From the NCBI GenBank assembly GCA_014799395.1, contig JAAVID010000081.1, positions 56,019-120,018 of the forward strand: a stretch of DNA of 64,000 nt. Direction: 5' to 3'. Source of the stretch: Oscillospiraceae bacterium. Lineage in GTDB: Bacteria; Bacillota; Clostridia; Oscillospirales; Ruminococcaceae. The notes under the pieces are model-generated. The model had not been told where the DNA came from and did no database searches. It was given only the letters and a program-made list of their open reading frames with translations. The position numbers were made by a program, and so were the translations under genes. This document shows positions 18,075 to 27,544 of the stretch, piece by piece (position 1 is the first letter of the stretch; every line of letters begins with the position of its first letter).

Positions 18075-19058
18075 TTACGGCGTTTCGTTATTATTGAAAG
18101 TGAGCTCAGCCTGCTTTGCTACGCGTTCTGCGGCTTGGCGGCGGAAGCTCTCGGGGGAGATTATCTCGACTGCCGCGCCGAAGCTGAGCAGACGTATCAG
18201 CAGCTCGGTCTCGTCGGCTTTGTCGAAGTACAGGCTGACCGTACACCCGCCGCTTTCGAGGTCGCGCTCGGTGCGCTTCTCGTAGTTCGCGAACGCCATA
18301 AGAAAGCGCTCCACCGCGTTGCGTTCGGGCGCGACGTACACCGTCACGCTGTCGCGGGGTTTTGCAAACGGCGCGTTGAGATCGCCCGTGAAAAATCTTC
18401 CCGTTCGCTCTATCGCGTCTATTCTGCCGAGATTTATCACGCCGCCGCTCGATATCCTGCCGTTGCGGTGCTTTCGGGTGAGCACGCGGAGCTTGTCGTT
18501 TTTCTCGGAGTACTCGATATTCAGCGGCAGACAGGTGAAGCATATTCGCTTGTCGTGACCGGAGGTGTACGATATTTTCAACAGTTCACGAGACTTTATC
18601 GCCGAGAGTATAACGCGGAAATTCTCGCGGTAACGAGGGTCGGAAAAATCGTCGCCGTCGGTGAATTTGTCGAAATAACGAAAATGTTCGCGGAAATACA
18701 GCGGCTTTATATCGGCAAGGCGCTCCTCCAGACGGCGGAGAGTTTCGTCGTCGAAAAACAGGCGGAAGCGGTCGTCCGCGAGCTTGGATTTGAGCCAGCG
18801 CTTTTGCAGTAAAGTAAGCACGGCGGGCGGAGGATTTTCGGTCACGCGAGAGAGCGTTCCGTCGGCGTTGCGGCGCAGCAATCCCCAATCCGAGCCGTCC
18901 TTCTGCGGCAGGAGCTTTTGCGGAAGAAACAGCGCCGAATCGCGGAAGCCGAGCGAGCGTATCAGCTCGTAGACCTCGTCGTCGGTCACGGATTTGTTCT
19001 TCATAGCGCGCGCGGCTATGCGGTAGTACGCGCCGTATATCTCACTGAATATCGTCAT
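18075..19058 (-). CDS. WYL-domain transcriptional regulator (second of a pair)
   Basis: A 327-residue protein with a WYL-type ligand domain in its middle and C-terminal part (ILSAIKSRELLKISYTS...LPLNIEY near residue 155), a fold seen in bacterial regulators that bind nucleic acids or nucleotides. The N-terminal 120 residues carry helical segments that could form a winged helix. ATG 19058 is chosen (GGTGAG upstream); the gene overlaps the end of the first WYL gene by 17 bases, so the two proteins are probably made together and may form a heteromer. The pair lies divergently upstream of the rtcB / RNA array / Ro-like locus and is a candidate regulator of it. Confidence 0.75.
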   Translation of the reverse strand: MTIFSEIYGAYYRIAARAMKNKSVTDDEVYELIRSLGFRDSALFLPQKLLPQKDGSDWGLLRRNADGTLSRVTENPPPAVLTLLQKRWLKSKLADDRFRLFFDDETLRRLEERLADIKPLYFREHFRYFDKFTDGDDFSDPRYRENFRVILSAIKSRELLKISYTSGHDKRICFTCLPLNIEYSEKNDKLRVLTRKHRNGRISSGGVINLGRIDAIERTGRFFTGDLNAPFAKPRDSVTVYVAPERNAVERFLMAFANYEKRTERDLESGGCTVSLYFDKADETELLIRLLSFGAAVEIISPESFRRQAAERVAKQAELTFNNNETP

Positions 19059-20307
19059 TTTGCTCACCACCGTTGTACATTTCGTTCATTCGCCGTATGT
19101 CGTTCTCGAAAAGCTCACGCGCTGCGGCGTTGCCGCCCTCCGGCTTGACTATCCTGCCGATAAAGGTCTTGACCCAGTGCATTGGCTCAACGGGGTCGAA
19201 CGCGTCTATCGTGAGCTTGTACAGCTCGTCGGAGAGCTTTTCGAGCGTGCCGCTGCGTTTTTCGCGTTCAATGCGGTTGATTATGAACTCCTCGCCCTTG
19301 CCGATATGTATCGTTATTTCGAGCGGAGTTACGTTGCCCGTTTCGCGGCGTTCGCCGAAAGATACGCCGAAACAGCGGTTTTCGTTTTTGAGGTACTTTT
19401 CGTAAATACCGTCAAATTCGGCAAACGGAGCGCCTGTTTTGACCGCGCGGATATAGTCGAGACGGAACGCGTTAAAACGGTTGTACAGCGGGATATACGC
19501 GACAAGATAACGCCGTCCCGTCTGCACGGAAGCGGAAACGCGCATGGGCACGACAAGATTTTCGCTCTCTTTTTTTGAACGGTTTTTCGCCGAAAATGTG
19601 TACAGCAGGAGCGTTTTTTTCTGCTCAACTGCGTTGAGTATTTCGAGAAGTATCTCGTCCTCAAGCGTGTGGACGATATAGTTGTGCTTCATAAAAAATA
19701 TGTCGTTTTCCATACCGACGGATTTTAAGATACTGTTGCCGACAACGCCGAATTCGCCTGTTTCGGAGAAGAATTTCACCGCGTCGGAAAGCCCGGCGAA
19801 CTCGCGGAAATACTCGTCGGCACGGTCGGGGGAGAGCGAGAAATAGGCGGTCTTGCCGCGCTTTTCCGAGATTATCAAGCCCTCGGCGACGTATTCTTTG
19901 AGCTTGTTGCGGACGGTCTGCTCGTCGAAGAGGATACCGTATCGGCGGTCGATCTCGTCCACAAGCTCGCGCAGGGAGAGCGGGCTGCCGTCATAGAGCA
20001 CGTCTTGTATCAGAAAGTGCAGGCGAATGTCGTTGTCGGTGAAGCTCTTGGAGTAGAACGCTTTATAGAGCGGGTTTTCGGGGATATGACCGCTGTCTAC
20101 GGAAATGGAAATTTGCCGTCCGCGCACGGAATCGTCGTAGCGGAGGAACTCGCCGAGCCAGCTTTCAACGCGGCGTTTTTCGTCGTCGTAGGTACGGGCG
20201 CTCTTGCGATTGAAGTCGCCGCGGACTTTAAAGCCGTAGATGAAGAAGTCGCGGACGTAGTCGCGGGTCTTTTCAAAATTTTTTATCAGCTCGGAAAAGC
20301 CGCTCAT
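19042..20307 (-). CDS. WYL-domain transcriptional regulator (first of a pair)
   Basis: A 421-residue regulator. The N-terminal half contains winged-helix segments (SLRELVDEIDRRYGILFDEQTVRNKLKEYV near residue 110) and a YFSLSPDRADEYF wing; the C-terminal half contains the WYL domain, with ILNAVEQKKTLLLYTF near 220 and YLVAYIPLYNRFNAFRLDYI near 265. WYL proteins commonly control DNA-damage, RNA-repair or phage-defence genes. AGGAGG-like bases precede ATG 20307. The CPBP protease gene ends 15 bases upstream, so protease and both WYL genes probably form one transcription unit opposite to rtcB. Confidence 0.8.
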   Translation of the reverse strand: MSGFSELIKNFEKTRDYVRDFFIYGFKVRGDFNRKSARTYDDEKRRVESWLGEFLRYDDSVRGRQISISVDSGHIPENPLYKAFYSKSFTDNDIRLHFLIQDVLYDGSPLSLRELVDEIDRRYGILFDEQTVRNKLKEYVAEGLIISEKRGKTAYFSLSPDRADEYFREFAGLSDAVKFFSETGEFGVVGNSILKSVGMENDIFFMKHNYIVHTLEDEILLEILNAVEQKKTLLLYTFSAKNRSKKESENLVVPMRVSASVQTGRRYLVAYIPLYNRFNAFRLDYIRAVKTGAPFAEFDGIYEKYLKNENRCFGVSFGERRETGNVTPLEITIHIGKGEEFIINRIEREKRSGTLEKLSDELYKLTIDAFDPVEPMHWVKTFIGRIVKPEGGNAAARELFENDIRRMNEMYNGGEQNDDIQ

Positions 20308-20321
20308 CGGTATTCCTCCTT

Positions 20322-21065
20322 TTATGTATTCTTGTGTTTTTTTGCGGTAACAACAAGCGCCACCGTAACCGCTAAGCTCAATAATACGACATTATATTGT
20401 ACGGGCGCGATAAAGCAAGTGTTAAACAGCATATGCAGCAGGGCGGTCGCTATTACGTTCTTATATGTTAGGAAAAACTTGCCAAGCACAAACGAGAGCA
20501 GAACCGTCCAGAGAAAATATAACGCCGTCTCTCCAATGCCGAGAGAGTTTCGTATCGTCCACATCGGTATATGCCAGACCGCCCACGCTATTCCCGTGTA
20601 TATCAGCGCGAACGGCGTTTCTTTGCCGTCAGAGAGCTTGTTCAGCAGATACCCTCTCCACGCGCTTTCCTCTGCCAGCGCCGTCAAAAACAAGTAGGCG
20701 CTGCCCGCTATAACAGAGAAGAATGTCGGGTAATTTTTCACAAACAGATCGCTTTCGTTCGCTATTAGCGAATACGCAAATGAAAACGCAAGACCTATCG
20801 CGCCCGTTACGGCACAAAAAATCAATGATTTCATTTTAATTCTTTCGGAAAACAAGCCCGCGAGCCACTTCTTTAATTCGCCGTGAGCCGCCGCAAAAAT
20901 CACCGATAACACAAGCGGAACGATCACAAATAAATATTTCGCCGCGGTCAGCACTTTGGGTACGTCTGCTCCGTTATTTTCGAGAAGCATTGGCAGATAG
21001 CAGACGAATGAAAACGTCCAGACCGATACTGTCCACAAAACTATTGTCAAAAAATATTTTTTCAT
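20322..21065 (-). CDS. CPBP-family intramembrane metalloprotease
   Basis: A 247-residue membrane protein with seven or eight helices. It carries the CPBP/Abi signature: EESAWRGYLL near residue 110 (the ExxxR motif), WAVWHIPMW near 145 and HMLFNT near 210, whose Glu and His residues bind the catalytic zinc. Family members include the Ras-converting enzyme type and bacteriocin self-immunity proteins. ATG 21065 follows AAAGGTGAG. It starts 155 bases from rtcB in the opposite direction and leads into the two WYL genes. A link with the rtcB system is only positional. Confidence 0.85.
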   Translation of the reverse strand: MKKYFLTIVLWTVSVWTFSFVCYLPMLLENNGADVPKVLTAAKYLFVIVPLVLSVIFAAAHGELKKWLAGLFSERIKMKSLIFCAVTGAIGLAFSFAYSLIANESDLFVKNYPTFFSVIAGSAYLFLTALAEESAWRGYLLNKLSDGKETPFALIYTGIAWAVWHIPMWTIRNSLGIGETALYFLWTVLLSFVLGKFFLTYKNVIATALLHMLFNTCFIAPVQYNVVLLSLAVTVALVVTAKKHKNT

Positions 21066-21176
21066 TGATCTCACCTTTAATTATTTTTACCTTATTAAAT
21101 AATAACAGAAACCAAAAATTTTTTCAACCCCTTTTAGTGTTCGCAGATTTTTTTATATGATTTTTTCGGAAATATA

Positions 21177-21185
21177 TGCTAGAAT
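21177..21185 (+). promoter_or_regulatory. Possible extended -10 promoter of rtcB
   Basis: TGCTAGAAT at 21177-21185 has the TGn extension and five of six bases of TATAAT. The -35 region (21157-21162) is poor, so an activator may be needed. There is no sigma-54 type GG...GC pair, unlike the RtcR-controlled rtc genes of Proteobacteria. Confidence 0.35.
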
Positions 21186-21219
21186 TAGAACATAACAAAA
21201 AACGAAAGGACTGAACGTA

Positions 21220-22446
21220 ATGTTTGTACATAAGCTCGACGACGGCGCGCCGATAAAGATATGGTCGGATATGGGAACGATCGAGGACGGCTGTCTGGCG
21301 CAGGCGGAGAACCTTTCGCGCTTGCCGTTTGTATATAAATGGGTCTCGCTTATGCCCGATACGCACAAGGGCAAGGGTATGCCGATAGGCGGCGTTATCG
21401 CCTGCGACGGCGTTGTTATCCCGAACGCGGTGGGCGTGGACATAGGCTGCGGAATGGCGTTTGTACAGACGAACGTTCCAACCGCGCTGCTCCGCGATAC
21501 TATGACGGGGAACGGAACTCTTGTTCAGGCGATATGCGGCGATATTCTCCGCAATATCCCGACAGGGTTCAACCACTACAAGAAGCCCCAGCCCTCCGCG
21601 GTGCTTGACAAGGCTAAGGAGCAGGGCGAGAAATACGAGTTCGACAAGGAGTTATTGCCGCAGATAGACGAGGGCTACTTTCAAGTGGGAACTCTCGGCG
21701 GCGGAAATCACTTCATTGAATTGCAGGAGGACGAGAACGGAATGTGCTGCATAATGCTCCATTCGGGAAGCCGTCACTTCGGGAACGTTGTCGGGCAGTA
21801 CTTCAACAAGATAGCTCACGAGCTTAACGACAAGTGGCACTCCAAGGTGCCGTCGGAATGGAATTTGCCGTTTTTGCCCGTTGATACCGACGAGGGGAGA
21901 CGCTATCTGGAGTGGATGCAGCTTTCGATGGATTTCGCGTATGAGAACCGCGCGGTCATGCTCGCGAAGATAAAGGAGACGTTCACGAAATACGCGCTCA
22001 AATACCTCAACATCGAGCCCGAGTACTCCTGCGAGATAAACTGCCACCACAACTACGCGGCTATCGAGAACCACTACGGGAAAAACGTTTACGTTCACCG
22101 CAAGGGCGCTATACGGGCGCGCGAGGGCGAGCTTGCGATAATCCCCGGCGCTATGGGGTCGTTCAGCTACATAGTTAAAGGAAAGGGCGAACCTATGAGC
22201 TTTATGTCCAGCTCGCACGGCGCGGGGAGAGCGTATTCGAGAACGGCGGCGGTCGCCAATTTCTCCGTCGAGAGCGTAATGTGCGACCTTAAGGAGCAGC
22301 ACGTCGTTCTGGCGAAGCACAACAAATCCGACGTTGCGGAGGAATCGCGGTTCGCTTACAAGGATATAGACCAAGTAATGGCTAATCAGACCGATCTCAC
22401 CGAGGCAGTCAAAAAGCTGTTTACGATAGGGGTGGTCAAGGGTTAA
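21220..22446 (+). CDS. rtcB: RNA-splicing ligase RtcB
   Basis: A 408-residue GTP- and Mn-dependent RNA ligase that joins 2',3'-cyclic-phosphate (or 3'-phosphate) ends to 5'-OH ends, used in tRNA splicing and RNA repair. The metal and active-site residues are in place: VDIGCGM near residue 78, GGGNHFIEL near 160, HSGSRHFG near 180, NCHHNY near 270 and the guanylylated-His loop SSHGAGRAYSR near 332. Its length is typical of the shorter bacterial RtcB group. AAAGGA precedes ATG 21220. Its stop is only 4 bases from the first hairpin of the RNA array, so gene and array almost certainly share one transcript with the Ro-like gene. Confidence 0.95.
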   Translation: MFVHKLDDGAPIKIWSDMGTIEDGCLAQAENLSRLPFVYKWVSLMPDTHKGKGMPIGGVIACDGVVIPNAVGVDIGCGMAFVQTNVPTALLRDTMTGNGTLVQAICGDILRNIPTGFNHYKKPQPSAVLDKAKEQGEKYEFDKELLPQIDEGYFQVGTLGGGNHFIELQEDENGMCCIMLHSGSRHFGNVVGQYFNKIAHELNDKWHSKVPSEWNLPFLPVDTDEGRRYLEWMQLSMDFAYENRAVMLAKIKETFTKYALKYLNIEPEYSCEINCHHNYAAIENHYGKNVYVHRKGAIRAREGELAIIPGAMGSFSYIVKGKGEPMSFMSSSHGAGRAYSRTAAVANFSVESVMCDLKEQHVVLAKHNKSDVAEESRFAYKDIDQVMANQTDLTEAVKKLFTIGVVKG

Positions 22447-22450
22447 AGGT

Positions 22451-22511
22451 ACGGCTCGCAGCTCGTCAGCAATTTCAGCAGCGGACTGAAAATCCGCGTC
22501 AACCGAGCCGT
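22451..22511 (+). ncRNA. Y-like RNA module 1, with Phe-type anticodon arm
   Basis: Closed by ACGGCTCG (22451-22458) and CGAGCCGT (22504-22511), 8 bp perfect. Inside is GCGGACTGAAAATCCGC (22481-22497), a perfect 5-bp stem with a 7-base loop reading CTGAAAA, that is, an anticodon arm with anticodon GAA (Phe). There is no T-arm or D-arm here. A GTCAGCA sequence stands where later modules have ACAGCA. It lies 4 bases after the rtcB stop. Confidence 0.75.
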
Positions 22512-22517
22512 GTAAAT

Positions 22518-22585
22518 ACGGTGTGTACAGCATTTGAGGAAACGCAAATGTTCCCGAAACGGGTTTTAAACATTTGTGACACCGT
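22518..22585 (+). ncRNA. Y-like RNA module 2
   Basis: Closed by ACGGTGT (22518-22524) and ACACCGT (22579-22585). ACAGCA follows at 22527-22532. The insert is a two-part hairpin, CAAATG/CATTTG enclosing CCCG-AAA-CGGG. It is followed by a linker ending in five T. Confidence 0.75.
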
Positions 22586-22598
22586 GTACATAATTTTT

Positions 22599-22656
22599 AA
22601 GGCACAGACAGCAGCAAGTTTAAACATCATAACCATAATGATTTAAAATGTGTCTT
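22599..22656 (+). ncRNA. Y-like RNA module 3
   Basis: Closed by AAGGCACA (22599-22606) and TGTGTCTT (22649-22656), 8 bp with one G-U pair. ACAGCA follows at 22608-22613. The insert is an AT-rich hairpin, TTTAAACATCAT with ATGATTTAAA, and an A-run precedes the 3' strand. Confidence 0.7.
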
Positions 22657-22678
22657 GTTTTCACAATTGGTTAATTGA

Positions 22679-22825
22679 ACGACCGTTACAGCAAAAATGT
22701 ACTTTATGCAAGATAAACGGCAATGTCATCGGCGGCTTTTGCTTTGACCGATGCGGATATAATATCCTGCCTTGAGCAAGGTCTCTTGCTCGTCTGCACA
22801 ATTGAATATTTTATTCAACGGTCGT
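22679..22825 (+). ncRNA. Y-like RNA module 4 (largest)
   Basis: Closed by ACGACCGTT (22679-22687) and AACGGTCGT (22817-22825), 9 bp perfect. ACAGCA follows at 22688-22693. The 120-base insert holds several hairpins: CATCGG/CCGATG, GGATA/TATCC, the perfect GAGCAAG-GTCT-CTTGCTC, and TTGAATA/TATTCAA. No clear tRNA arm is seen. Confidence 0.7.
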
Positions 22826-22838
22826 GTTTTTAAATTTT

Positions 22839-22906
22839 TCGGCTCGTACAGCATTTATTTGGTCGCGGGGTGCTCGGAAACGGGTCCCGTATGAAAACCG
22901 AGCCGA
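22839..22906 (+). ncRNA. Y-like RNA module 5
   Basis: Closed by TCGGCTCG (22839-22846) and CGAGCCGA (22899-22906), 8 bp perfect. ACAGCA follows at 22848-22853; GAAAAC precedes the 3' strand. The insert is GC-rich (GCGGGG... CCCGT) and may form one hairpin. Confidence 0.75.
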
Positions 22907-22909
22907 GTA

Positions 22910-23007
22910 ACGGCGCAGACAGCATTTTTTGTCGCGTGTCGCGGGTTCGACTCCCGCCGGGCTTATGCCCCGTAGCTCAGGTGGTAGAGCAGCAAAAACC
23001 GCGCCGT
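22910..23007 (+). ncRNA. Y-like RNA module 6, with permuted tRNA-like domain
   Basis: Closed by ACGGCGC (22910-22916) and GCGCCGT (23001-23007). ACAGCA is at 22919-22924. The insert has, in order, a perfect T-arm GCGGGTTCGACTCCCGC (22941-22957), an acceptor-like hairpin GGGC-TTAT-GCCC (22959-22970), then TA and a D-arm GCTC-AGGTGGTA-GAGC (22975-22990). This is a tRNA in circularly permuted order with the anticodon arm replaced by the module stem, the arrangement known for the effector domain of bacterial YrlA Y RNA. Confidence 0.85.
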
Positions 23008-23019
23008 GTACAAATTTTT

Positions 23020-23096
23020 TCGGCGTTCACCGCATTATTTCGGAGGAACGGAGCGAGGGGGGGTCTTGACTTACCCGCCGTTAAAAAACGCGCCGA
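23020..23096 (+). ncRNA. Y-like RNA module 7 (divergent)
   Basis: Closed by TCGGCG (23020-23025) and CGCCGA (23091-23096). The usual ACAGCA is replaced by CACCGCA (23028-23034). The insert has a purine-rich strand and a possible GGGG/CCC hairpin; A-runs precede the 3' strand. It is the weakest member of the series. Confidence 0.55.
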
Positions 23097-23101
23097 GTTT
23101 A

Positions 23102-23186
23102 AGACAGCAGCAGCAACAATCAGATTGGTTACTGCGGGTTCAAATCCCGCCGCTTCGGAGTGATCCGTTGAGGGAAAACGCTGTCT
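23102..23186 (+). ncRNA. Y-like RNA module 8, with permuted tRNA-like domain
   Basis: Closed by AGACAGC (23102-23108) and GCTGTCT (23180-23186), with GCAGCA repeats after the 5' strand. The insert contains a perfect T-arm GCGGGTTCAAATCCCGC (23134-23150), a short acceptor-like hairpin CGCT-TCGG-AGTG, and a D-arm-like TCC-GTTGAG-GGA, in the same permuted order as module 6. AAAAC precedes the 3' strand and six T follow within the next linker. Confidence 0.8.
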
Positions 23187-23202
23187 AGTTTGAATTTTTT
23201 GT

Positions 23203-23295
23203 AAGAGGGCAACAGCATAAAATTGACGGCTAATGTCGGTTCGAATCCGTACCTTGTATCCGTTAATATTCGGATACTTGCAAAAATGCCCTCTT
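23203..23295 (+). ncRNA. Y-like RNA module 9, with T-arm, next to the Ro-like gene
   Basis: Closed by AAGAGGGCA (23203-23211) and TGCCCTCTT (23287-23295), 9 bp perfect. ACAGCA is at 23212-23217. The insert has a T-arm with canonical loop TTCGAAT on an imperfect stem (about 23235-23252) and a perfect 7-bp hairpin GTATCCG/CGGATAC. The 3' strand ends 3 bases before AAGGAG of the next gene, so folding may affect translation. Confidence 0.75.
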
Positions 23296-23310
23296 GAAAG
23301 GAGAATTGAG

Positions 23311-24774
23311 ATGATAAATCTTATCAATAACGAAATGAATAAGACCTACACGCTGAACGGCGCGGTGACTAACCGCACCTCGGGCTCGTTCTGCCTTGAC
23401 CTGTTCTTCCGCGCGGGCGCTATGCGTTCGGCGAGCGAGGAGGAGATCGCGGCGGTTGTTACCCGCGCTTACGCGGAGGACCCCGTTAAGGCTATGAAGA
23501 TCGTGTTCTTCGCGCGTGACGCTAGGGGCGGTCTGGGCGAGCGCCGTTTTTTCCGCGCAGCTGTTAAGGCGCTGGCGGCTTACGCTCCCGCTGCCGTTGA
23601 GAGAAATATCCCCCTGTTCGCGGAGTACGGCAGATACGACGACCTCGTTTCGCTGCTCGGCACTCAGTGCGAGGGCAAGGCGGTCGAGGTTATCCGCGGG
23701 CGACTGGGCGAGGATATTAAGTCAATGGAGAACGGCGGTCAGGTATCGCTGCTGGCGAAGTGGCTGCCCTCGGTGAATACTTCTTCCGCTGCCGCGAGAG
23801 CGAACGCGAGAACCCTTGCGAAGCGCCTCGGCTACAACGAGAAGCAGTACCGTCAGACCCTGTCTAAGCTCCGCAAGTACTCGGACATTCTCGAAAACCG
23901 TCTGCGCGAGCGCGACTACACGTTCGACTACGGCAAGCAGCCCTCCTGCGCGATGTTCAAGTACAGACAGGCGTTTCTGCGCAACGACAACGAGCGCTAC
24001 ACCGAGTACCTCAACGCCGTAAACCGCGGCGAGGAGAAGATAAACACGGGCGCGCTGTTCCCTTATGACATAGTGCGCGCCTGCCTTGAGACCGAGGTCT
24101 CCGAGCAGGAGAAGCTCGCGCTCGACACGACCTGGAGAAATCTCCCCGTTTACGGCGAGGGCGGAAACGCTATCGCGGTGGTGGACGGCTCGGGCTCGAT
24201 GACCTATGCTCCCCGTCAGAGCGTAAGACCTCTTGACGCGGCGCTGTCGCTGGGCATTTACTTTGCGGAGCACAACAAGGGCGCGTTCGCAAATCACTTT
24301 ATCACGTTCTCGGCAACTCCCCGGCTGGTGGAGATAAAGGGCGCGGATATTGTTGAAAAAACGCGTTTCTGCGCGACGTTCAACGAGGTGGCGAACACCA
24401 ACCTCGAGGCGACGTTCCGTCTGATACTCTCGGCGGCGATCAACAATAACGTAAAGCAGGACGAAATGCCCGAGCGTATGTACATCATCTCCGACATGGA
24501 GTTTGACTGCTGCGTTGACGGCGGCAACGACAGCACGCTCTTCGATACGATGAAAGCGCTGTACGCCGAGCACGGCTACAAGCTCCCCGAGGTGGTTTTC
24601 TGGAATGTCAACAGCATTCACGAGAACTTCCCCGTGAGAATGTCCGATACGGGCGCGGCGCTGGTTTCGGGCTTCTCTCCCGCGATCTTCGATATGGTGG
24701 CAGGCGGCGAAATTTCCCCCGAGACCATAATGAACAGCGTTATCGAAAGCGAGCGGTATGCGGCGGTGAGCTAA
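23311..24774 (+). CDS. DUF2828-type Ro60/TROVE-like protein with vWA domain
   Basis: A 487-residue protein. The N-terminal two thirds consist of helical repeats with the TROVE/DUF2828 pattern (NRTSGSFCLDLFFRAG near residue 20; KIVFFARDARGGLGERRFFR near 65; PLFAEYGRYDDLVSLL near 100). The C-terminal third is a von Willebrand A domain with MIDAS motif DGSGSM near residue 290, then NTNLEATF and ISDMEFD. Ro60 and its bacterial relative Rsr form a ring that binds Y RNAs and misfolded RNA ends. I chose ATG 23311 (AAGGAG upstream); a longer frame would start inside RNA module 9. With rtcB and the RNA array it forms one probable operon for RNA quality control or repair. Confidence 0.85.
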   Translation: MINLINNEMNKTYTLNGAVTNRTSGSFCLDLFFRAGAMRSASEEEIAAVVTRAYAEDPVKAMKIVFFARDARGGLGERRFFRAAVKALAAYAPAAVERNIPLFAEYGRYDDLVSLLGTQCEGKAVEVIRGRLGEDIKSMENGGQVSLLAKWLPSVNTSSAAARANARTLAKRLGYNEKQYRQTLSKLRKYSDILENRLRERDYTFDYGKQPSCAMFKYRQAFLRNDNERYTEYLNAVNRGEEKINTGALFPYDIVRACLETEVSEQEKLALDTTWRNLPVYGEGGNAIAVVDGSGSMTYAPRQSVRPLDAALSLGIYFAEHNKGAFANHFITFSATPRLVEIKGADIVEKTRFCATFNEVANTNLEATFRLILSAAINNNVKQDEMPERMYIISDMEFDCCVDGGNDSTLFDTMKALYAEHGYKLPEVVFWNVNSIHENFPVRMSDTGAALVSGFSPAIFDMVAGGEISPETIMNSVIESERYAAVS

Positions 24775-24797
24775 AGCGTATTCACGCTCTAAAAATT

Positions 24798-24823
24798 ATC
24801 CCCCGAGAAAGTTCTCGGGGGAT
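24798..24823. terminator. Terminator of the rtcB/Ro-like operon
   Basis: ATCCCCCGAGAA (24798-24809) pairs perfectly with TTCTCGGGGGAT (24812-24823), followed by ATTTGTTT. It also serves the convergent anti-sigma gene. Confidence 0.85.
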
Positions 24824-24829
24824 ATTTGT

Positions 24830-25333
24830 TTATGCGTTTTCGCTGTAAGGAACAAAGCCCTCGCCGTATTCGGCAAGATAATCTATAAACAGCGGGTCTA
24901 TTTCGCCGTCCTCTGTGAAAGCGATCTTATCACTGTCAACTATCTTCATACCGTCAACATCATCGCCCTCAACAATGATTGTCATTGCGCCGCTCGCGTC
25001 ATCGGGCAGTTCCAGTTCGACCTCGGTCACATTGCCGTCGTCGTCAACGGCGTACTCGGTTATTGTTCCCGATACTTCCACGCCGTTCATAATGAAGCTG
25101 AACGTTTTGGAAATTCCGTCCATAACCGCGCCGTCGGTAGCCGCGTTTGCGGTCATAAGCGAAGCCGCGCCGGTTGCGGTGATAGCCGCCGCGATAAGCA
25201 GGGGCTTAATTGTAAAATGTTTCATTGGTTTTTCCTCCTCTATTCGCGACAAAACGGCGGTCTTGATATTCTCGGCGCTCTTGTCGGCAGCCGTTTCCTC
25301 GTCAAAGCATTTTTTAAGCAATTCTTCAAGCAT
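24830..25333 (-). CDS. Probable anti-sigma factor, single-pass membrane protein
   Basis: A 167-residue protein encoded directly after an ECF-like sigma factor, with an 8-base overlap. A 38-residue N-terminal cytoplasmic part, LEELLKKCFDEETAADKSAENIK, precedes one membrane helix (PLLIAAAITATGAASLMTANAA, near residues 44-65) and an acidic extracytoplasmic domain. Position and topology suggest it holds the sigma factor inactive until an envelope signal arrives. There is no zinc-binding HxxxCxxC anti-sigma motif. ATG 25333 follows AAGGGG. Function is inferred from position. Confidence 0.6.
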   Translation of the reverse strand: MLEELLKKCFDEETAADKSAENIKTAVLSRIEEEKPMKHFTIKPLLIAAAITATGAASLMTANAATDGAVMDGISKTFSFIMNGVEVSGTITEYAVDDDGNVTEVELELPDDASGAMTIIVEGDDVDGMKIVDSDKIAFTEDGEIDPLFIDYLAEYGEGFVPYSENA

Positions 25334-25880
25334 GATCAAAACCCCTTTTCGTCAGATATTCTTTAAGCTTGGTTCGCGTTCGGGAGAGCTCGGAGCGGAC
25401 GGTGCTTTCGGAAATATTCATTTTCCGCGCTATTTCGGGAGTGCTTTCTCCGTAGAAGTAGTACCTCGCGAAAATTTCGCTTTCCTTTTCGGGCAGCGTT
25501 GAAAGTCCCTTGTCGAGACAGCGCAGCATTTCGTGAATATCGGCGGCGTCCTCCACCAAAAAGCCGCTCGGAATCTCAAGCTCCGAGATGTCCTCGCACG
25601 GCGGCTTTGCGGACTTGAACCTGTCCTTTACCGCGTTCCTCGCCGCTGCCGAAAGGTAGGAGCGGAAGCCGATATTCACGTCAAGAGACCCGCGGTGCTG
25701 CCACAGCGAAAAGAACACGTCCGAGCACAATTCGTCGATATCTTGTTCGGATAACGTACCGCGCGAAAAATTGCGGATAACGGTGCGGACGTATCCCGTA
25801 TAGCAGTCGATGATCTCTTTAAGCGCCGCCGTATTGCCCTTTTTCAGCTTTACGGCGAGCTGTTTTTCCTTTGTATGCAT
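25326..25880 (-). CDS. ECF-like RNA polymerase sigma factor
   Basis: A 184-residue sigma factor with region 2 (DIDELCSDVFFSLWQHRGSL, near residue 45) and region 4 (LPEKESEIFARYYFYGESTPEIARKM... SESTVRSELSRTRTKLKEYL, near 125-175). ATG 25880 follows GGAGG. The size and two-domain structure fit the extracytoplasmic-function group. It is cotranscribed with the membrane protein downstream that probably restrains it. No target promoter can be deduced from one copy. Confidence 0.88.
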   Translation of the reverse strand: MHTKEKQLAVKLKKGNTAALKEIIDCYTGYVRTVIRNFSRGTLSEQDIDELCSDVFFSLWQHRGSLDVNIGFRSYLSAAARNAVKDRFKSAKPPCEDISELEIPSGFLVEDAADIHEMLRCLDKGLSTLPEKESEIFARYYFYGESTPEIARKMNISESTVRSELSRTRTKLKEYLTKRGFDHA

Positions 25881-26085: not shown

Positions 26086-26529
26086 ATGAATATATCAAAT
26101 CAGGAATACGGCGAGCTTGCTAAGCGGCATTCTCCGCCGTCGGCTATGTACAAGACCATTCCGCTGGCGTTTGCTATCGGCGGAGGTATATGCGTTATCG
26201 GCGAGGCTCTGCTGAATATGTATCAGGCGTTCGGGCTTGACCCGGACGAAGCGGGAATGTGGACTTCGATGTCGCTTATCTTCCTGTCCGCAATGCTTAC
26301 GGGCTTTAAGATATACGACCGCATTGCGCAGCACGCGGGCGCGGGTACTCTCGTGCCGATAACGGGCTTTGCCAACTCGGTGGTATCGCCCGCGCTGGAC
26401 TTTAAGAGCGAGGGTTATGTGCTCGGATTGGGCGCTAAGATGTTCGTTATCGCGGGTCCCGTAATAGTATACGGTATTTCGGCTTCGATAGTCTACGGAA
26501 TAATTTACTATATAACTACGCTGTTTTAA
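26086..26529 (+). CDS. spoVAC: Stage V sporulation protein AC
   Basis: A 147-residue inner-membrane protein of the SpoVA channel, which moves calcium dipicolinate into the developing spore and out at germination. It has four hydrophobic segments; the tail region VPITGFANSVVSPALDFKSEGYVLGLGAKMF is diagnostic. AAAGGAG precedes ATG 26086. It heads a spoVAC-spoVAD-spoVAE operon that in this group is transcribed in the forespore by sigma-G; I could not fix a sigma-G promoter by eye in the AT-rich 200 bases upstream. Confidence 0.93.
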   Translation: MNISNQEYGELAKRHSPPSAMYKTIPLAFAIGGGICVIGEALLNMYQAFGLDPDEAGMWTSMSLIFLSAMLTGFKIYDRIAQHAGAGTLVPITGFANSVVSPALDFKSEGYVLGLGAKMFVIAGPVIVYGISASIVYGIIYYITTLF

Positions 26530-26539
26530 GGGGGATATT

Positions 26540-27544
26540 ATGGCAATTTGCGAGGGAAAAACGTTTAAATTCAGCAACGCCTCAATATCCGAGTGGGCTT
26601 CCGTTGTCGGCAAGGTGGAGGGCGAGGGTCCTCACGGCGACGAGTTTGACGAGGTGCTTGACGACAACAAGGACGATATGGACACCTGGGAACAGGCGGA
26701 GGCGCAATTGCAGAAAAAGGCGTTACAGCACGCTATGGACAAGGCGAAGCTCTGCCCCGAAAAAATGGATCTGATTTTCGCGGGCGACCTGCTCAATCAG
26801 TGTACGGGCTCGTCCTACGGATTAAAGGAATTTTATATCCCGTTTCTGGGAGTGTACGGCGCTTGCTCGACGTTTGCGGAGTGTCTGCTTTTGTCGGCTT
26901 GTATGGTGAACGCGGGGTACGTTGACAACTGCTCGGCGGTGACCAGCTCGCACTTCTCGTCGGCGGAGCGGCAGTTCCGTTTTCCGCTGAACTACGGCGG
27001 AGTGCGCACTCCAACGTCGCAATGGACGGCGACCGCGGCGGGTGCGGCGATACTCAACTCGGCGCTCAAACCGCCGTATATCCGCGCGGGAACAGTCGGG
27101 AAAATTCAGGATATGGGTATCAACGATCTGAACAATATGGGCGCGGCAATGGCGGGCGCGGCTTACGATACTATCTCGCGCCATTTCAAGCACACGGGAA
27201 CTCACCCCGAAAGCTATGACGTTATTGTAACGGGAGACCTCGGGCAAGTCGGCAGCGATATGCTGTACGAGCTGTTTGAGCGCGACGGCGTGTCGTTAAA
27301 GGAACACCACCAAGACTGCGGACTGCTCCTCTACGACCGCGAACGGCAGGACGTTCACGCGGGCGGTTCGGGCTGCGGCTGCTCGGCTTCGATGATGTGC
27401 GCGCACTTCCTCGGTCGCGTAAAGAGCGGCGAGCTGAAACGGATACTGTATGTGGCAACGGGCGCGCTTATGTCGCCGACTATGGTGCAGCAGGGCGGCT
27501 CGATACCGGGCATTGCGCACGCGGTAGAGATAAGTTACACTTGA
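26540..27544 (+). CDS. spoVAD: Stage V sporulation protein AD
   Basis: A 334-residue soluble protein with a thiolase/ketosynthase-like fold that binds dipicolinic acid as part of the SpoVA complex. The N-terminus KTFKFSNASISEWASVVGKVEGEGP and internal GDLLNQCTGSSYGL and GVYGACSTFAECLLLS stretches are characteristic. It lies 10 bases after spoVAC with its own AGGGGG site. Length is that of the family. Confidence 0.94.
   Translation: MAICEGKTFKFSNASISEWASVVGKVEGEGPHGDEFDEVLDDNKDDMDTWEQAEAQLQKKALQHAMDKAKLCPEKMDLIFAGDLLNQCTGSSYGLKEFYIPFLGVYGACSTFAECLLLSACMVNAGYVDNCSAVTSSHFSSAERQFRFPLNYGGVRTPTSQWTATAAGAAILNSALKPPYIRAGTVGKIQDMGINDLNNMGAAMAGAAYDTISRHFKHTGTHPESYDVIVTGDLGQVGSDMLYELFERDGVSLKEHHQDCGLLLYDRERQDVHAGGSGCGCSASMMCAHFLGRVKSGELKRILYVATGALMSPTMVQQGGSIPGIAHAVEISYT

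Follow-up and report, generated by a model that had tools for sequence, protein, structure and literature searches.

A tandem array of nine predicted hairpin modules, several with copies of tRNA arms, upstream of a putative Ro-like gene, and related arrays in bacteria and phages: candidate decoys for tRNA-cutting nucleases

Bacterial Y RNAs that mimic tRNA, as well as Y RNAs in mycobacteriophages, were reportedly already known from the work of Chen in 2014, which PMC7790460 and PMC12282133 cite. In D. radiodurans, a Y RNA tethers Rsr to PNPase, and a tRNA-like domain is part of YrlA in Salmonella, according to passages of one paper (PMC7790460); passages of another place a ROT/TROVE protein in a small subset of jumbo phages (PMC7824862). 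No description of Y-like RNAs that bear anticodon-arm mimics and stand in tandem next to DUF2828 proteins was found in the passages of the open-licence PMC literature that were covered, and DUF2828 itself was found there in four papers, which by their titles all concern plants. Here, we describe a 64,000-nt stretch of contig JAAVID010000081.1 from an Oscillospiraceae bacterium (the window), in which nine hairpin modules lie in tandem between rtcB and a gene encoding a DUF2828 protein. In our judgement the chances are about even that these modules, several of which carry copies of tRNA arms, would act as decoys for tRNA-cutting nucleases on a predicted Ro60-like ring.

The modules occupy the 864 bases between the rtcB stop (22446) and the DUF2828 start (23311), a gene-free tract that a preliminary description of this DNA had already delimited, and all are encoded on the forward strand (Table 1). 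Each of the nine closing stems proposed in that description was found at its proposed start, and the stem lengths of 6-9 bp that it gave agree with the modules as delimited here, with a G-U pair in module 3. Left unremarked there were a shared motif, copies of tRNA arms and the presence of similar arrays in bacteria and phages. The 5' strand of the stem leads into a motif of the type ACAGCA, which is exact in modules 2-6 and 9 and variant in modules 7, 8 and, after an apparent 7-nt insertion, 1. In module 1, the sequence GCGGA.CTGAAAA.TCCGC has the same loop and the same three inner stem pairs as GGGGA.CTGAAAA.TCCCC of the host tRNA-Phe, with one G-C pair of the stem changed to C-G. A T-arm resembling that of module 8 is also found in modules of three other bacterial loci (L008, L009 and L010).

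The closest described RNA is YrlA. Module 6 matched the Rfam model of YrlA (RF02553) at 22910-23010 with 53 bits (E 5.7e-11), which is under the gathering cut-off of 69; the alignment spans the whole model (1-114), with a permuted T-arm, an acceptor-like hairpin and a D-arm inside the terminal stem. No match to YrlA was found for the other eight modules of the window at E 1. Elsewhere, modules of L009, L008, L112 and L248 scored 56.8, 53.8, 53.6 and 39.3 bits, respectively, all under 69, and the permuted order typical of YrlA is found in module 6, L008, L009, L112 and mycobacteriophage Snenia. Module 6 resembles YrlA in having a terminal stem around a permuted domain with the T-arm before the D-arm, and in adjoining rtcB and a Ro-like gene, the latter neighbour being assigned to the Ro family by its fold. 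By contrast, its internal motif is ACAGCA and not the YrlA consensus of the Rfam alignment, and here several unlike modules are found per array. Anticodon-arm mimics and tRNA mimics in natural order further distinguish the modules from Y RNAs, for which such mimics are not known to have been described.

Structure prediction gives the DUF2828 protein a Ro60-like fold, with a ring of helical repeats and a vWA domain. For the structure model (mean pLDDT 82.4, pTM 0.73), the nine best Foldseek rows and the ten best VIA-align rows were Ro60/TROVE structures with TM-scores of 0.34-0.55 by query length, and the best structural matches were 9kop, 9l5y, 1yvr, 2i91 and 2nvo. Four residues (D292, S294, G295 and S296) are invariant across 24 sequences, and D292, S294 and S296 fit DxSxS, the MIDAS-type motif of vWA domains. 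While the predicted combination of helical repeats and vWA domain is shared with Ro60/Rsr (TROVE), identity over the structural alignments is 9-15% and the protein belongs to the DUF2828/DUF7788 family. Only DUF7788 and DUF2828 matched it in Pfam, with no match to TROVE (PF05731) at E 0.001; PF05731 had no match in the genome of the window at E 1e-10, and a search of solved structures by sequence gave 0 matches. The gene is patchily distributed, being found in 7 of 61 genomes and in 24 of 394 genomes sampled from the order, with the window's own genome included in both counts. The proposal of a Y-like RNA array beside rtcB and a Ro-like gene is thus borne out: module 6 is a relative of YrlA, and the DUF2828 protein has a predicted Ro60-like fold.

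Further modules were searched for with a strict descriptor consisting of seven Watson-Crick pairs, two bases of any kind, an exact ACAGCA and a G after the 3' strand. As this descriptor itself demands pairing, five dinucleotide-preserving shuffles and the opposite strand were used as controls. The bacterial set of 107 loci comprised 26 gene-bearing loci, the window and 80 named loci (two of which, L056 and L129, duplicate loci among the first 27); these 80 loci and the 80 viral contigs considered below are the best-scoring of at least 80 matches each. The strict descriptor found 5 matches in a tested 12-kb stretch of the window, and 84 in the first 27 loci (shuffles 0, 0, 0, 1, 0; opposite strand 0). 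Of the 80 named loci, 78 had at least one match, with a total of 246 (shuffles 0, 0, 0, 0, 1; opposite strand 2). No strict module was found beside classical TROVE genes in the two loci found among 149 genomes, each of which is only about 3.2 kb long. A looser descriptor applied upstream of the DUF2828 gene gave 600 matches (shuffled sequence, 121; opposite strand, 212); adding the G after the stem gave 482 (shuffled sequence, 24). Of the latter set, 459 modules lie at most 1600 nt upstream of the gene, and they cover 106 of the 107 loci. Their median length is 74 nt and their 5' strands come in 98 versions; every one of the seven stem positions shows all six standard pair types. At the level of sequence, the modules therefore form a family in which two bases separate the variable closing stem from a motif of the type ACAGCA, and the 3' strand is usually followed by a G. 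Homologous loci thus have the conserved stems on which the preliminary description had staked its proposal, with strict matches far above those in shuffled sequence. Arrays of these predicted modules are usual around DUF2828 Ro-like genes in related bacteria and frequent in phages, where they often lie near tRNA genes. In L009, the first module of the array is separated from the others by a small open frame of the size of a protein gene, and in L010 a similar gap lies at the corresponding position.

Among phages, the protein family (PHROG 850, "RNA-binding protein") matched 677 of 50,697 records and is present in Felixounavirus, Mycobacterium cluster L, Listeria, Campylobacter, Enterococcus, Staphylococcus, Vibrio and Bacillus phages. 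In the rows inspected, its usual annotation is hypothetical, RNA-binding or vWFA protein, and in Mycobacterium phages "Ro-like RNA binding protein". The strict signature was found in all eight named phages, which were picked by hand from the match tables and not at random; they total 25 modules, seven of the loci having two or more, whereas shuffles and the opposite strand gave 0. The 80 viral contigs, counted with duplicates, carried 158 strict modules (0-1 per shuffle; 2 on the opposite strand), with at least one in 59 contigs and at least two in 47; 11 contigs with identical 300-bp upstream sequence were dropped from the counts of tRNA mimics. Genes for tRNA, 244 in total, were found in 41 of the 69 distinct viral loci; by annotation, the Ro-like gene adjoins tRNA genes in fjerdesal, F207, VRE9_1 and BcoS-136, and modules are interspersed among tRNA genes in BcoS-136 and B. 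subtilis phage FADO. In its available passages, a study of Listeria phage CKA15 proposed Y RNAs near the Rsr-like gene CKA15_055 and found the protein in purified particles (PMC12282133). The CKA15 region of abundant RNA (L256:2737-3228; OR088597.1 26,236-26,727) contains no ACAGCA module and has no Rfam match inside at E 0.01.

Copies of tRNA arms were counted in 434 bacterial and 128 phage modules near a Ro-like gene, after removal of duplicate loci, duplicate modules and repeated inner sequences, and were compared with 311 reference tRNAs with 82 distinct anticodon loops, tRNA calls in or near modules being excluded from this reference. The bacterial modules held 65 T-arms with five pairs and a TTCRANN loop (0.2 in shuffled sequence) and 82 anticodon-type hairpins (4.9 shuffled), 46 of which had a loop identical to that of a reference tRNA (0.6 shuffled). 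In the phage modules, 30 anticodon-type hairpins were found (2.2 shuffled), with a real tRNA loop in 26 (0.1 shuffled). Even when the reference was restricted to the 27 loops of the window's own genome, identical loops numbered 24 in bacteria and 15 in phages (0.2 shuffled in each). A test without selection on pairing agreed with these hairpin counts: of the 7-mers equal to real anticodon loops, 46 of 173 in bacterial modules and 39 of 113 in viral ones were flanked by strands that form five pairs, whereas the controls gave 10 of 998 (Ro coding sequences) and 1 of 162 (module shuffles). One module of L037 has a D-arm, a CAU anticodon arm and a T-arm in natural order and scored 46.6 bits against the tRNA model (cut-off 29). 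Overall, a T-arm, D-arm or real anticodon loop was found in 108 of 434 bacterial and 32 of 128 phage modules, and 72 of 104 bacterial and 22 of 48 viral loci had at least one arm-bearing module. Between the modules of L037, a tRNA-like match of 37.5 bits at L037:4376-4447 lacks the closing stem and the ACAGCA frame; aragorn called it tRNA-Ile(aat) and called tRNA-Phe(aaa) at the corresponding place of L038. A recurrent anticodon-like loop, CUGUCAA (nine counted), differs from the host Asp loop CUGUCAC at position 38.

In phages, two tRNAs are over-represented among the mimics relative to the 244 tRNA genes that these loci encode. Lys-UUU accounts for 11 of 37 mimics and 9 of the 244 genes (Fisher p 3.5e-6), and Asn-GUU for 7 of 37 and 10 of 244, respectively (p 0.003), with identical modules and duplicate loci corrected for. 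The favourite in bacteria is Phe-GAA, with 10 of 46 mimics. Mimic stems are AU-rich, with a G+C content of 23% in phages and 36% in bacteria compared with 63% in the reference tRNAs. According to passages of PMC3014915, PrrC cuts tRNA-Lys and accepts 17-mer anticodon stem-loops as substrates, and a stable stem inhibits the enzyme. As an RNA answer to tRNA nucleases, the putative decoys resemble T5/SP15 tRNA-Tyr and T5 tRNA-Lys, and many phage arrays lie in or beside tRNA clusters. However, evading phage tRNAs are described, in the passages available, as working tRNAs that replace depleted ones (PMC11555353, PMC12409363), whereas the arms found here sit in hairpins that lack an ordinary acceptor stem, and they would take no part in decoding. 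Another likeness is to type III toxin-antitoxin arrays such as ToxIN, in which RNA units also lie in tandem immediately before a protein gene; the units of these systems are near-identical and serve a nuclease partner, while those of the present array are unlike one another and have a partner that is predicted to be Ro-like.

In the proposed scheme, the array would likely be co-transcribed with rtcB and the Ro-like gene, since all are on one strand and the last closing stem ends 15 nt before the DUF2828 start codon. The stem and ACAGCA-type loop would likely be bound by the Ro-like protein, since this is the conserved part of the module and recurs with the protein family in bacteria and phages. 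Some inner domains contain, by sequence, T-arms, anticodon arms whose loops are authentic, or entire tRNA-like folds, the order of whose parts is natural or permuted; arm-recognising enzymes, anticodon nucleases foremost, would thereby be drawn off real tRNAs. RtcB, where present, would reseal cut tRNAs and possibly cut decoys, and the pair of WYL genes upstream of rtcB would sense damage and regulate. Sequence shows the modules and their conservation, tRNA arms in some of them, and association with the Ro-like gene and, in many phages, tRNA genes; the Ro fold is predicted, and we infer decoy action, transcription with the operon, binding of stem and ACAGCA by the Ro-like protein and repair by RtcB. 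The preliminary description had suggested that the array might supply guide or decoy RNAs for repair by RtcB; nothing guide-like was found, and the decoy idea appears better supported than the guide idea because of the shared motif, the tRNA arms and the recurrence of arrays around DUF2828 genes in bacteria and in phages near tRNA genes. As for the link with RtcB itself, partners were counted in 72 bacterial loci with enough flank (L056, L129 and 33 short-flank loci being dropped): rtcB lies upstream or downstream in 45, so the association exists and is not universal, and both WYL-pair genes are present in 52. With neither rtcB nor the WYL pair in 15 loci, a first point that weighs against the proposed scheme, RtcB and the WYL proteins are frequent and not obligatory partners; more constant is the pairing of the modules with the predicted Ro-like protein.

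Several other observations also speak against decoys for anticodon nucleases. No strict module was found in 21 of the 80 viral contigs, and a recognisable tRNA arm was found in 4 of the 9 window modules (1, 6, 8 and, imperfectly, 9). With the descriptors used, 326 of 434 bacterial and 96 of 128 phage modules have no recognised arm; most inner domains are thus unexplained by tRNA arms, and copies of T-arms and D-arms are not read by anticodon nucleases. The excess of Lys and Asn was corrected for identical modules and duplicate loci only, with phage relatedness ignored, and in a separate count a single 17-mer (ATAGA.CTTTTAA.TCTAT) made up 8 of 16 Lys mimics. The low G+C content of mimic stems could partly reflect composition. 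The bacterial preference for Phe-GAA fits no anticodon nuclease that we could name. Thr-UGU, a main target of AriB, is absent from the counted mimics, and AriB also touches other parts of the tRNA, as stated in passages of PMC12409363. In CKA15, the most transcribed non-coding region given in the available passages (26,236-26,727; PMC12282133), the source of one of three abundant RNAs in that phage, is without modules, which are at 25,290-25,552; because the most transcribed region excludes them, that study is no direct evidence for the modules.

The explanation closest to known biology is control of a Ro-like quality-control ring of the Y-RNA type, in which modules would occupy or gate the ring or, by mimicking tRNA, anchor nucleases or tRNA-modifying enzymes there, the particle would handle damaged or misfolded tRNAs, and decoy action would not be the purpose. 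It gains from the matches of module 6, L008, L009, L112 and L248 to YrlA (39-57 bits, all under 69), and T-arm and permuted domains suit the recruitment of tRNA-binding proteins better than they suit nuclease decoys. Taken alone, it leaves unexplained why an array holds several unlike modules, why authentic anticodon loops of many isoacceptors are displayed, why Lys and Asn are in excess in phages and why phage tRNA genes are so frequently near; we regard it as doubtful, though far from negligible. The reading of the modules as decoys can be widened to a general device of bacteria and phages, in which DUF2828 Ro-like proteins and arrays of stem and ACAGCA, each array a panel of tRNA mimics, would soak up anticodon nucleases by means of the anticodon arms, including anti-phage ones directed at tRNA-Lys and tRNA-Asn, with array content tuned to the nucleases met; this we hold tentatively, at somewhat short of even chances. 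Ro60 and Y RNA would, if this were true, stand within a larger family of tRNA-decoy particles, and a proven decoy function would amount to a new kind of defence and counter-defence device.

The partner genes also suggest that modules with anticodon arms might be sacrificial reporters, with cleavage fragments inducing the operon through the WYL proteins and RtcB resealing after the attack. In Salmonella, damaged tRNAs control the rtcBA operon by way of RtcR, according to passages of PMC7790460. The frequency of rtcB and of both WYL genes in the 72 loci would fit this sensor and repair substrate, as would a gene annotated as tRNA splicing ligase that follows the Ro-like gene of Listeria phage WIL-1 at a distance of 1.3 kb. 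However, rtcB of the window had no tblastn match at E 1e-15 in the best-scoring 80 viral loci, where a divergent ligase would escape the search and WYL genes were not searched for, and anticodon arms are missing from most modules; such a role seems improbable. More improbable still is a reading in which the modules are what is left of tRNA genes trapped in a repeat array, with hairpins kept merely for mRNA stability or processing. Phage modules do lie among intact tRNA genes in FADO and BcoS-136, and the unframed tRNA-like match in L037 would suit remnants, but module loops equal real anticodon loops while their stems differ and yet stay paired, and the ACAGCA motif recurs across phages and bacteria. 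Apart from function, the signature of stem, NN, ACAGCA, stem and G allows such putative RNAs to be located in bacteria and also in phages, among them Felixounavirus, Mycobacterium cluster L and phages of Bacillus and Campylobacter. The embedded anticodon arms offer a testable prediction of the interaction partners of the particle and would tie Ro particles to the contest between bacteria and phages over tRNA.

Table 1. Hairpin modules and neighbouring genes in the window (positions are those of the window)
Feature	Position	Strand	Closing stem	Motif	Remarks
Module 1	22451-22511	+	ACGGCTCG/CGAGCCGT	TCAGCA	tRNA-Phe(GAA) anticodon-arm mimic, 22481-22497
Module 2	22518-22585	+	ACGGTGT/ACACCGT	ACAGCA	
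Module 3	22599-22656	+	AAGGCACA/TGTGTCTT	ACAGCA	Counterpart in loci L008, L009 and L010
Module 4	22679-22825	+	ACGACCGTT/AACGGTCGT (9 bp)	ACAGCA	Longest module
Module 5	22839-22906	+	TCGGCTCG/CGAGCCGA	ACAGCA	
Module 6	22910-23007	+	ACGGCGC/GCGCCGT	ACAGCA	Circularly permuted tRNA-like domain; T-arm 22941-22957, D-arm 22975-22990
Module 7	23020-23096	+	TCGGCG/CGCCGA (6 bp)	ACCGCA	
Module 8	23102-23186	+	AGACAGC/GCTGTCT	GCAGCA	T-arm mimic GCGGGTTCAAATCCCGC, 23134-23150, read from sequence
Module 9	23203-23295	+	AAGAGGGCA/TGCCCTCTT	ACAGCA	T-loop-like CGGTTCGAATCCG, 23237-23249, imperfect stem
rtcB, 3'-phosphate RNA ligase	21220-22446	+			Pfam PF01139, E 7.3e-110, profile 1-426 of 426 (whole length)
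Ro-like protein, DUF2828 and DUF7788 (vWA)	23311-24774	+			Pfam PF25043, PF11443; PHROG 850 "RNA-binding protein"; predicted Ro60/TROVE fold
WYL-domain protein, member of conserved pair	19042-20307	-			Pfam WYL, E 9.2e-6
WCX-domain protein, partner of the WYL gene	18075-19070	-			Pfam WCX, E 1.1e-6

The start of the DUF2828 gene was taken as 23311, which is preceded by GAAAGGAG and coincides with the start in relatives; an earlier in-frame ATG lies at 23233. A protein-coding tract between rtcB and the DUF2828 gene was considered and rejected, there being short overlapping frames only on both strands. Counts of promoters and terminators in the region 20900-25000 were near those in shuffled sequence (6 compared with 3.6, and 6 compared with 5.5), and nothing is claimed from them. 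Upstream of rtcB, on the opposite strand, Pfam identified a CAAX-protease gene and the WYL/WCX pair, which may be the regulator of the operon. Among the viral contigs, a calcineurin-like phosphoesterase gene (L175:7524-8339) overlaps the end of the Ro-like gene and resembles the profile of a phage RNA-ligase family; it may encode an RNA-end healing enzyme. Band 7 genes are found near the Ro-like gene in L175 and L195.
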